This document shows positions 35,091-57,513 of a DNA stretch of 64,000 bases, piece after piece. The notes below the pieces were generated by a model. That model searched no databases. It worked only from the letters and a program-made list of their open reading frames with translations, and was not told the origin of the DNA. Each line of letters opens with the position of its first letter. Position 1 is the stretch's first letter. Location: the NCBI RefSeq assembly GCF_000262465.1, contig NZ_CM001489.1, forward strand, positions 5,663,149 through 5,727,148. Direction: 5' to 3'. Origin of the DNA: Frankia sp. QA3 (GTDB lineage: Bacteria > Actinomycetota > Actinomycetes > Frankiales > Frankiaceae). Made by a program: the position numbers and the translations under genes.

Positions 35091-35537
35091 TCACCGCAGT
35101 GGACGCATGCAGTCCCGGCATCGGTCGTTCAGGATCGACAGAAGCTCGACCGCCTTCAGGGAGGCGTCACGCACCTTGGCGATGTCCTGCGACGAGTTCA
35201 GCCGGATCAGGGCGGTCTCGGCTCCGTCCGAGGCGCCCTCGCGGACGGCTTCCACGATCTCGGCCGCGGGGGTGCCGTACTGGAAGAGCAGGATCTCCTT
35301 GTCCTGGTATGCCGGCAGCTCCATGGGTAGGTGACCGAGACCGATGCCCGCGAGGTTGCGGCTGAGGATCTGCCGCACGTTCGTCCCGAGCCGGCCGTAG
35401 CCACCGATCTCCCGCAGCATGCCCATGGTGGTCCTGAAGACTCCGTTGTTCCCCACCACGGCTGCCCGCAGGTCCTCCCAGGTCCCGGGGGCGTCGGTCG
35501 GCACACCGATCATCTGCGCCTCCGACATCTCTACCAT
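35091..35537 (-). CDS. Unknown protein divergent from nifV
   Basis: 148 residues, soluble, acidic-to-neutral, no signal peptide. Mixed alpha/beta pattern: GTWEDLRAAVVGNNGVFRTTM and GYGRLGTNVRQILSRNLAGIGLGH, then LLFQYGTPAAEIVEAV. It ends with CRDCMRPLR, a CxxC that might bind metal or act in redox. Read away from nifV across a 733-base regulatory spacer. A nif-linked regulator is conceivable from position only; family not recognised. Start ATG 35537 or 35528. Confidence 0.65.
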   Translation of the reverse strand: MVEMSEAQMIGVPTDAPGTWEDLRAAVVGNNGVFRTTMGMLREIGGYGRLGTNVRQILSRNLAGIGLGHLPMELPAYQDKEILLFQYGTPAAEIVEAVREGASDGAETALIRLNSSQDIAKVRDASLKAVELLSILNDRCRDCMRPLR

Positions 35538-35700
35538 CCCGGCTGGCAACCGAAGTACCCCGCGTATACGTGTACCGACACGCCCAGCTCCTTCCGCTTC
35601 CCGAGGGAAAGCACTGCGTGCTGCCGGGCCGGCCTCGCCCGGCTTCGCCCGGCGTCTTTTTGTTATCCATAAGATATCCGACCCGTCCGGCGAGGTCCAA

Positions 35701-35720
35701 CCCAGGAAGAAGTTCAAGGG
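35701..35720. promoter_or_regulatory. nif-flanking motif, copy 1
   Basis: CCCAGGAAGAAGTTCAAGGG, 17 of 20 identical to copy 3 at 56146. It lies 164 bases upstream of the start of the minus-strand unknown gene. Confidence 0.6.
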
Positions 35721-36045
35721 TTTCGATAACGTTAACCCTCGCTGCACAGGACGATGGTGACGCCATCGGGACGTGCCGATTAGTGCGTACTCCGCACCGC
35801 CGCCGAGAGCCCCCCGTGACCCCCCTCGGCTTCCTTTCCGTAACATTTGCGCTACGGAAAGGAATCGTTCGAGCCGCCCGGTCGGATAACCTGGCGTCTG
35901 CACGGTCGGACGCATCGACCGCGGCTCCTTTTCGTTCGGCCGGGGCACCGCCCTCGGTGAGGTGCGCGACTCCGTGGGCCCCCGGTCGCCCTGGGCGGCC
36001 CACCCTGCCGGGGGAGCTCCGCCACTTCCGGCCCGCCCGAAGACC

Positions 36046-36082
36046 CCCAAGGAAAAGTCCAAGGATAGATTTTTCCTTGCGG
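36046..36082. promoter_or_regulatory. nif-flanking motif, copy 2, with hairpin arms
   Basis: It starts CCCAAGGAAAAGTCCAAGGA and continues through TTTTTCCTTGCGG. It matches copy 3 (56146-56182) at 31 of 37 positions. CAAGGAAAA (36048-36056) can pair with TTTTCCTTG (36071-36079). It sits about 190 bases upstream of nifV. Confidence 0.7.
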
Positions 36083-36085
36083 ATA

Positions 36086-36107
36086 TCCTTCGAGATATCT
36101 CGAAGGA
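36086..36107. promoter_or_regulatory. 22-base perfect palindrome upstream of nifV
   Basis: TCCTTCGAGAT followed by ATCTCGAAGGA, with no spacer. It suits a dimeric regulator. The bases AAGGAAAA (36103-36110) can also pair with TTTTCCTT (36071-36078) of motif copy 2, giving an alternative structure. Confidence 0.75.
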
Positions 36108-36273
36108 AAAGCTTGCACTCAATCGCCGAGAATACCTGTTAACCGGGAAGTTACCGGCGCTTGCAGCCTCGAAATAATCGCCTCCTAGTCTGATTCGTGT
36201 CGCCGCCGAACAAACACAGAACCACAGTTCGCGGCGCAGCCCATGGTCTTCAGTCCCGGAGCAACGGCTGGTG

Positions 36274-38531
<2,258 letters not shown>

Positions 38532-55874: not shown

Positions 55875-56213
55875 GAGTGCCTTCTTTACCGGTCGCCGGG
55901 ACGGGTCGAGTGTTGAAGGCGGGCCGGGCCCGCGGTGACCCGCGGATCGATGGTGGGCTCCGTCGTCGACCACGGAAACCTGCCACCGGAACCGGCCCGA
56001 TTCTACGGTTCGGCCGTACTTGCGGCTTCCAGGAAAGCGTAACAGGAGACCGGGCCGGATGGGGAGGTCGGCTGTAAAGGGAGCGTAAACAAGTCGACCC
56101 GTAGTCGGTGGTTTTCGATAGGGCGATCCCACCGCCCGGGAAAAACCCAGGGATAAGTTCAAGGATAAGTTTTTCCTGGCGGCCGGTGCGCGGGAGGCGA
56201 CCCGCGCCGCCCC
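55875..56213. promoter_or_regulatory. fdxA upstream region
   Basis: About 340 bases between fdxA and ltrA, both on the minus strand, so any promoter here serves fdxA. It contains nif-flanking motif copy 3 about 270-310 bases upstream of the start. No clear gene. Confidence 0.6.
56139..56182. promoter_or_regulatory. nif-flanking motif, copy 3, with hairpin arms
   Basis: Core CCCAGGGATAAGTTCAAGGA at 56146-56165, then TTTTTCCTGGCGG. GGAAAAAC (56139-56146) can pair with GTTTTTCC (56169-56176). Inside is a direct repeat AGGGATAAGTT / AAGGATAAGTT 12 bases apart. Confidence 0.7.
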
Positions 56214-57422
56214 TCACCGCGCCGAGCGGGTCCCGCCAGCCACCTCCGTGGCGACGATCAGGCCCGTCAGCACGAGCCCGGTGGCCAGGACCGGCTCCGG
56301 GCTGAACGTCACCGCGAGCACGGCGGCGGCGGCGAGCACCACCAGCGCCGTCTGGACCCGGCCGGCGTGATGGGGGCGCAGGTGCAGCAGCGCGACGGTG
56401 ACCAGGAAGACGGCCACCGGCACGGTCACCGCGGCGCTCGCGGCGAACCTGTCGATCTCGCCGTGGTGGGTGACGTGGTCGGTGTTCGCCGCGAGGCCGG
56501 CGCCGACGGCCGCCGCGGCGGCGAAGATGAAGAAGTGGCCGTACCCCCACACGAAGCTCACCCGGTTCGCCACGAGGAACCGGTGCGCGGACCGGGCGAA
56601 GTACAGCCACCACATCGCGAAGACGGTCAGCAGCCCGCCGGCCGCCACCCCGAACAGCGCGGCGCCGGCCTGGTCGGCGTCGACGGCGGACTGCACCGCG
56701 ACCGTCGCCGAGAGGACGGACTCGCCCAGGACGATGATCGTGAACAGGCCGTACCGTTCCGCGATGTGGTGGGGATGCCACGGGGTCCGCCCGGCCCGCT
56801 CGGCCACGATCGGCACCGCCAGCTCCGCGAGGACCATCACGACGAACCCCAGCAGGCGCCAGCCGTCCGGGACCGCCAGCAGCGCCGCCCAGCCGATCAT
56901 GCAGACCGACACCCCCAGGGCGTAGCCGTGCGCGGTGCGCGCGCCGGCCGCGTCCGCGCCGCGGGCCGCCCGCAGCCACTGGGCCACCAGCCCGCAGCGC
57001 ATCACCGCGTAGCCCAGGGTCACCACCGCGAAGTCGTCGTCGAAGGCGCGCGGCACGCCGGCGGCGAGGATGAGCACCCCGGCGATCTGGACGAAGGCCG
57101 CGGCCCGGTACGGCACATCGTCGACGTCGTAGGCGGAGGCGAACCAGGTGAAGTTCATCCACGCCCACCAGACGGCGAAGAAGACGGTGAGGTAGGCCAC
57201 GGCACCGCTGCCCATGTGCCCCTCACCGAGGGCGTGGTGCAGCTTCGTGGACGACTGCGCGACCGCGACCACGAAGCACAGGTCGAACAGCAGCTCCAGC
57301 GGTGTCGCCACGCGGTGCGGCTCGTCGACGGACCGTGGGCGCATCGGCCGGTGCCAGGGACGGCGGTCCGCCGGTGGCGGTGGCGGCGGCGTCGAGGAGT
57401 CCGACAGCTCCGGGGGCGTCAT
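56214..57422 (-). CDS. Low-temperature-requirement-type protein LtrA
   Basis: 402 residues with 10-12 hydrophobic helices. The opening VATPLELLFDLCFVVAVAQ and the central HIAERYGLFTIIVLGESVL are hallmarks of the LtrA family. The molecular function of LtrA proteins is not established. ATG 57422 preferred over TTG 57431. Confidence 0.88.
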   Translation of the reverse strand: MTPPELSDSSTPPPPPPADRRPWHRPMRPRSVDEPHRVATPLELLFDLCFVVAVAQSSTKLHHALGEGHMGSGAVAYLTVFFAVWWAWMNFTWFASAYDVDDVPYRAAAFVQIAGVLILAAGVPRAFDDDFAVVTLGYAVMRCGLVAQWLRAARGADAAGARTAHGYALGVSVCMIGWAALLAVPDGWRLLGFVVMVLAELAVPIVAERAGRTPWHPHHIAERYGLFTIIVLGESVLSATVAVQSAVDADQAGAALFGVAAGGLLTVFAMWWLYFARSAHRFLVANRVSFVWGYGHFFIFAAAAAVGAGLAANTDHVTHHGEIDRFAASAAVTVPVAVFLVTVALLHLRPHHAGRVQTALVVLAAAAVLAVTFSPEPVLATGLVLTGLIVATEVAGGTRSAR

Positions 57423-57513
57423 AGCCGGCAAGGTACCGGCCGGCGCCGGTTTGCCGCACGGCAGGCAAACCGGCAGGTGACCGGCCTGACAGCCGGTCGC
57501 CCCGGGCGGCTGC

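Follow-up and report, generated by a model that had tools for sequence, protein, structure and literature searches.

A conserved dyad lattice and a GlnR-type box at the nif and ferredoxin promoters of Frankia

Comparison of 13 Frankia genomes revealed that the element conserved upstream of nifV, of the nif-linked ferredoxin gene fdxA and of a second ferredoxin gene, fdxA2, is an inverted repeat, RGGAWA-N16-TWTCCY (the dyad), found in all three promoter families. Downstream of the dyad stands an AC-n9-AC box of the GlnR type, which is the strongest conservation in these promoters. The explanation that best fits the whole, with a probability of about 0.7, is that the dyad is a nif-dedicated operator working together with GlnR-type nitrogen control. 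The sites, their conservation, their specificity, their geometry and their co-occurrence with a gene divergent from nifV were observed directly in the genomes described below.

Results

The AT-rich motif of the nif region

The window is the whole stretch of DNA analyzed, 64 kb from Frankia sp. QA3, and its main features are listed in Table 1. Pfam supported the identification of nifV, nifH and two oxidoreductase genes taken to be korA and korB. The original prediction described an AT-rich motif in three copies with the consensus CCCARGRADAAGTYCAAGG. The blocks at 36046-36082 and 56146-56182 are indeed identical at 31 of 37 bases, the third copy at 35701-35720 shares 17 of 20 bases with 56146-56165 when compared by eye, and no other place in the window exceeds 22 matches to either 37-bp block, apart from self-matches of the first block, which matches its own reverse complement at 27 and 23. 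Genome-wide (one contig of 7,590,853 bases, or 7.59 Mb, with completeness given as 94.85%), the consensus has only three exact matches, the same three copies; the next-best match has two mismatches, and allowing up to three mismatches gave 18 matches vs 8 for a reversed-pattern control.

The finding is thus real, and stronger than was first thought, but the consensus, the third copy and the idea of a separate control system need correction. The consensus has the wrong boundaries, and the 37-bp block, taken as a unit, loses part of the conserved element at its edge. We rejected the consensus as a functional unit, as columns outside the half-sites differ between lineages. The third copy was rejected as an operator: it is not a dyad, shares the left half only and is not conserved beyond close relatives, with 18-19 of 19 bases of 35701-35719 kept in six of 12 genomes and 9-15 in the other six (the contig of the 13th stops before the site). 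The fdxA copy does lie upstream of fdxA, but at 272 bp from its start and just past the end of an LtrA-family gene. Both fdxA and the unknown gene divergent from nifV are on the minus strand, and the two motif copies assigned to them point away from their gene; for the fdxA copy, the symmetry of the dyad explains this orientation. Since the LtrA-family gene (56214-57431, minus strand) ends 36 bp from the dyad, the putative fdxA operator is intergenic, flanked by two genes of the same orientation.

Table 1. Features of the nif region, with positions in the window
Feature	Position	Strand	Remarks
Conserved unknown gene, 148 aa, candidate regulator	35091..35537	-	divergent from nifV
Third copy of the original prediction	35701..35719	+	no dyad; kept in close relatives only
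GlnR-type box, divergent gene	35720..35735	-	TTAAC-n6-GAAAC
nifV operator dyad 1 (putative)	36050..36077	.	AGGAAA-N16-TTTCCT, 12/12
nifV operator dyad 2 (putative)	36062..36089	.	AGGATA-N16-TATCCT, 12/12; 12 bp along the same lattice
GlnR-type box, nifV promoter	36139..36154	+	TTAAC-n6-GTTAC
Putative -10, nifV	36186..36191	+	TAGTCT, 31 bp after the box; predicted
nifV, homocitrate synthase	36271..37488	+	HMGL-like, HCS_D2
nifH	37668..38531	+	Fer4_NifH
fdxA, nif-linked ferredoxin, 111 aa	55539..55874	-	
Putative -10, fdxA	56036..56041	-	TACGCT, 32 bp after the box; predicted
GlnR-type box, fdxA promoter	56074..56089	-	TTTAC-n6-TTTAC
fdxA operator dyad (putative)	56150..56177	.	GGGATA-N16-TTTCCT, 12/12

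Conservation of the dyad and its lattice

Alignments were made of the nifV upstream spacer in 13 Frankia genomes (the contig of G012 ends within the spacer), of 600 bp upstream of fdxA in 12 genomes and of 420 bp upstream of fdxA2 in 12; G005 was left out of both ferredoxin sets, its fdxA match being a distant one only. Within the last 400 bp, perfect dyads were present in 24 of the 37 upstream regions (nifV 7/13, fdxA 8/12, fdxA2 9/12) and dyads with at most one mismatch in 32 (12/13, 9/12 and 11/12, respectively), which bears out the expectation that a nif-linked element would be conserved in other Frankia. Among 7,400 dinucleotide shuffles, a perfect dyad arose three times and one of at least 11/12 arose 59 times. 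The five regions below this level are fdxA of G007, G008 and G012, with no N16 dyad of at least 11/12, nifV of G012, where the best dyad has a gap of 15, and fdxA2 of G003, where the best dyad reaches only 10/12.

When the gap between half-sites was scanned from 4 to 30, perfect dyads clustered at 4, 16 and 28, apart from single strays at gaps of 22 and 27; those with a gap of 4 occurred at nifV and fdxA only. This clustering indicates that the half-sites stand on a 12-bp lattice. In a table of 33 distinct sites, which shows the half-site consensus, the G positions (29 and 33 of 33) and the C positions (33 and 30 of 33) are near-invariant, a uniformity that is partly selected, since the sites were chosen for scoring at least 11/12. 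A perfect palindrome, CCTTCGAGATATCTCGAAGG, at 36087-36106 overlaps the end of the nifV dyads and is partly kept in related strains.

Genome-wide specificity

The genome of origin contains exactly three perfect dyads, an overlapping pair at nifV and a single one at fdxA, so the element is not frequent at unrelated genes; its fdxA2 site scores 11/12. Across the 13 Frankia genomes, 31 distinct sites were found, 26 of them at nifV, fdxA or fdxA2 (25 without a G005 contig-edge site placed by similarity), and the reversed pattern gave three sites in all. Five sites lie elsewhere (G002:C239, G003:1774090, G005:C478, G005:C980 and G008:C342). Four of these were inspected; one overlaps ORFs, and none of the four has a gene start within 400 bp downstream, as defined by the filter used. 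Elsewhere in the family, 22 genomes from other genera yielded 20 sites vs 17 for the control, which is background level, but these 20 include the promoters of nifH in G021 and of fdxA2 in G019. A tandem repeat, WTWTCC-N6-WTWTCC, was considered as an alternative definition and rejected as less specific than the dyad (61 matches in the 13 genomes vs 5 for the control, with two recurrent matches elsewhere, L181 inside an ORF and L182 not), although it was useful for finding fdxA2.

The GlnR-type box and the putative -10

The GlnR box of actinobacteria is a 5+6+5 site, GTnAC-n6-GTnAC and variants (PMC10704036). The boxes described here resemble it and are of the kind GTnAC-n6-GnnAC (AC-n9-AC), with TTAAC and TTTAC differing from GTnAC at the first base. 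At nifV the box is TTAAC-n6-GTTAC in 13/13 Frankia, at fdxA it is TTTAC-n6-TTTAC in all 12 aligned genomes, and at fdxA2 it is TTTAC or TTAAC followed by n6-TTCAC in 12/12. Upstream of the divergent gene, the minus strand reads TTAAC-n6-GAAAC in all 12 genomes covering that region, and the GAAAC b-site is shared with the box of glnA. As a positive control, glnA is preceded by GTAAC-n6-GAAAC in 13/13 genomes, so a canonical GlnR target is present; the best dyad in these 13 glnA promoters is 8-9/12. Within the window, TTWAC-n6-KTYAC occurs at nifV and fdxA only. The proposal that the AT-rich motif marks a separate nif control system is not supported, because a GlnR-type box stands in the same promoters, mostly at a fixed distance.

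Distances were measured from the dyad centre to the box start, and were mostly 62-63, 74-75 or 87 bp at non-homologous genes in three genera. At nifV the distance is 75 bp in 12 of 13 Frankia, often with a second dyad at 63 bp, and 74 bp for a 9/12 site in G012; at fdxA it is 74 or 62-63 bp, and at fdxA2 75 or 87 bp. The exception is the fdxA2 of F. canadensis (G002), at 123 bp, which is 48 bp or four lattice steps further.

A TAnnnT sequence was sought at 29-34 bp after the box, a range that partly selects the spacing, and was found at 31 bp in nifV (13/13) and in the Parafrankia-type nifH (4/4), at 32 bp in fdxA (10 of the 11 listed; 33 bp in G002) and fdxA2 (12/12), and, as TAATCT, at 34 bp in the Parafrankia-type fdxA2 (6/6). 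The dyad is mostly about 110-135 bp upstream of this presumed -10. Given the weak TAnnnT consensus, the selected spacing and genome G034, in which no TAnnnT occurs within 44 bp after the box, the -10 is weaker evidence than the dyad-box distance.

A second ferredoxin gene and other genera

Two occurrences of the same promoter were missed by the original prediction, one at a ferredoxin gene outside the nif cluster and one in Parafrankia, where the promoter precedes nifH rather than nifV. The ferredoxin gene, fdxA2 (C1:2115357-2115686 in the genome of origin; L108, L176), was found because WTWTCC-N6-WTWTCC matched its upstream region in nine genomes, and it carries the dyad-box promoter. It is 54-62% identical to fdxA and unlinked to nif, at 2.1 Mb vs 5.7 Mb in the genome of origin. 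Its neighbors differ between G003 and G001, the latter being F. alni ACN14a, as its nifV and nifH coordinates match the published ones (PMC10252897), and a DUF4096 transposase ORF lies just downstream of it in the genome of origin. In nodules of F. alni, NifH, NifK and KorB were the top raised proteins, KorA was raised too, and the ferredoxin FRAAL3855 was raised 12.67-fold (PMC8951365). In ACN14a, a PASTA-domain kinase is encoded a few genes away from fdxA2, and FRAAL3851 is a serine/threonine kinase (PMC10252897); by gene order alone, FRAAL3855 is therefore probably fdxA2.

At four Parafrankia-type loci, nifH itself is the gene that the divergent gene faces, with no nifV in between, and the same promoter precedes nifH, with dyads of 11, 12, 10 and 11 of 12, the box TTAAC-n6-GTTAC in 4/4 and a dyad-box distance of 75 or 63 bp. 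The promoter therefore travels with the operon, whether nifV or nifH comes first. The Parafrankia label for this genus (g5) rests on loci L209, L211 and L212 and on a G021 site identical to that of L210. In the six Parafrankia-type genomes, fdxA2 has the box in 6/6 and a dyad of 10-12/12 in 5/6, at 74-75 or 87 bp (the fdxA2 of G021 has no dyad of at least 10), and the nif-linked fdxA has neither a dyad of at least 10/12 nor a box in any of the six. In G034 the nifV dyad-box distance is 75 bp, and the box, TTAAC-n6-CTTAC, was missed by the box pattern and spotted by eye. In the five genomes of genus g6, which we take to be Protofrankia, a box precedes nifV with -n6-GATAC as its second part and GTAAC (four genomes) or GTTAC (one) as its first half, and no dyad above 9/12 was found in the 1.4 kb covered.

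The gene divergent from nifV

The divergent gene is present in 12 of 13 Frankia genomes, including the genome of origin; the 13th, G012, is 85% complete and its nif contig stops short of the gene. The other 11 copies are 89-99% identical, somewhat more conserved than nifV (84-99%). The gene was also found in 6/6 Parafrankia-type genomes and in G034, and in none of the five Protofrankia-type genomes or the 10 remaining genomes of the family that were searched. The Protofrankia-type genomes, which lack the gene, also lack the dyad, yet keep a box. Across genera, the gene and the dyad of the nif promoter are thus present or absent together, a co-occurrence of limited weight in that related genera share ancestry and represent few independent events. 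All 13 loci found in a scan of an 84,980-species collection belong to Frankia or Parafrankia, a count that is incomplete, since the scan relied on a pair of short peptide patterns, and ACN14a, CcI3 and G034 were not among its matches.

The full-length aligned copies of the protein share an invariant C-x-x-C near the end. Searches of Pfam and NCBIfam assigned it to no family, two AlphaFold models (pLDDT 51.6 and 55.7) were too poor to use, and a structural comparison of 41 chains yielded nothing. Weak matches to DUF6244 (best E value 0.11, 3 of 17 members), profile matches in G022 and G026 (E values 0.24 and 0.43) and PDB sequence matches to a designed repeat protein (E value 0.00045) and cytochrome c6 (E value 1.2) were all treated as noise. 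The region upstream of the gene contains no dyad of at least 11/12, and within the window there is none outside nifV and fdxA. At 35662-35679, upstream of the gene, lies TTATCC-ATAAG-ATATCC; the TTATCC is kept in 12/12 Frankia covering the site and the second TATCC, 11-12 bp away, in 11/12 (ATAACC in G003). This sequence could be the -10 region of the divergent gene or another pair of half-sites.

Discussion

Comparison with known systems

In proteobacteria, NifA/sigma-54 promoters carry an inverted-repeat site about 100-150 bp from the start at nif operons and ferredoxin genes. The Frankia dyad is alike in outline, being an upstream inverted repeat at nif and ferredoxin genes. However, neither the NifA site TGT-N10-ACA nor the sigma-54 -24/-12 element TGGCAC-N5-TTGCW was found in the last 340 bp of any of the 37 upstream regions. 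This result agrees with the remark in the original prediction that Frankia is not known to use a NifA/sigma-54 circuit here, and Frankia has been reported to lack nifA, nifL and rpoN (PMC5745019). Searches of the 37 regions for the MerR-type GlnR site (TGTNA-N7-TNACA), the NtcA site (GTA-N8-TAC), the DnaA box (TTWTNCACA) and FNR/CRP sites were likewise negative. The MerR-type GlnR of Paenibacillus is unrelated, in protein family and in site, to the OmpR-type GlnR. Paenibacillus offers the likeness of a Gram-positive nif operon under a nitrogen regulator named GlnR (PMC6191146), but the site of that regulator differs. The closer likeness is to OmpR-type GlnR promoters such as that of glnA, which share the 5+6+5 box; the nif and ferredoxin promoters of Frankia add the dyad lattice, which glnA is without. 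The accessible literature, mostly outside subscription journals and including PMC5745019, PMC6624747, PMC3188489, PMC4531530, PMC10252897, PMC8951365 and PMC10704036, yielded no prior description of the dyad or of GlnR control of Frankia nif.

A model for nif control and its alternatives

What follows about binding, activation, the signal and which two proteins are involved is inferred from these sequence patterns. A sequence-specific DNA-binding regulator, dimeric or oligomeric and dedicated to the genes of nitrogenase and its ferredoxins, would bind the inverted GGAWA/TWTCC half-sites on the 12-bp lattice, in most cases about 110-135 bp before the presumed -10, with half-site centres typically 21 bp, or two helical turns, apart. 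A GlnR-type nitrogen activator would bind the AC-n9-AC box between this operator and the -10. The near-fixed dyad-box spacing suggests that the two proteins act together, most simply as co-activators, and nitrogen starvation and a second nif-specific signal, possibly vesicle state, oxygen or redox, would then both be needed.

A candidate for this regulator is the 148-aa product of the gene divergent from nifV or nifH. On the strength of its phyletic match to the dyad, its position and its conservation, it is the leading candidate for the binder, although we regard this assignment as tentative. It is conceivable, at a similarly low level of confidence, that the protein is the first known member of a new nif-regulator family that is restricted to Frankia, Parafrankia and one related lineage. 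Such a protein might assemble on the GGAWA/TWTCC lattice and contact the GlnR-type activator and RNA polymerase, and the result could perhaps be a fixed-spacing nif switch unrelated to NifA, NtcA or Paenibacillus GlnR. We give roughly even odds to a different arrangement, in which the dyad is genuine and its binding protein comes from a locus other than the divergent gene, which would then be just a conserved gene linked to nif, perhaps one for a nitrogenase accessory or redox protein bearing the invariant C-x-x-C. The lack of a recognized DNA-binding family or fold and of a dyad of at least 11/12 upstream of the gene argue for this arrangement, and other regulators, including the TetR protein FRAAL0868, are raised in nodules (PMC8951365); however, the gene tracks the dyad across genera and stays divergent from nifV or nifH.

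That GlnR alone governs these promoters, the AT-rich lattice being a passive bend, an easily melted stretch or a site for a nucleoid protein, appears unlikely. The box is better conserved than the dyad and persists without it in the Protofrankia-type genomes and at the fdxA of three Frankia, as this explanation would predict, but a bend or AT-rich patch needs neither perfect dyads restricted to lattice gaps nor a GG/CC-containing pattern that is highly specific genome-wide. The near-invariance of G and C in the 33 preselected sites is weaker evidence in the same direction. Far less probable is a role as RNA, in which the inverted repeats form a terminator or attenuator hairpin after the LtrA-family gene (fdxA) or in a leader (nifV). 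The nifV copy does fold well as RNA (z -3.65), and the W positions are complementary in 26 of the 35 sites having W on both sides, but for the fdxA copy neither strand folds more stably than shuffles (z 0.14 and -0.23), the inner bases pair at just 98 of 222 positions and the element mostly stands 110-135 bp upstream of the presumed -10; at nifV, moreover, no gene runs into the element, since the neighbor is divergent. Chance, or the shared ancestry of non-functional spacer, can practically be dismissed, for although close relatives have most spacer sequence in common, the same dyad and distances recur at three non-homologous promoters in three genera, and the shuffle and reversed-pattern controls contradict it.

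Significance for Frankia

Alders, Casuarina and other non-legume hosts obtain fixed nitrogen from Frankia. The authors of an earlier study reported that homology searches did not uncover the regulators of its nif genes (PMC5745019). The same study describes class 2 mutants of CcI3, which have normal vesicles and low nif mRNA, and a transformation system has been described for F. alni ACN14a (PMC6769113). A putative operator, a co-located GlnR-type box, a single candidate gene and a small regulon, here the nif operon with two ferredoxins, make the question of Frankia nif control testable. For synthetic biology, the answer would tell which control parts accompany an actinobacterial nif operon.
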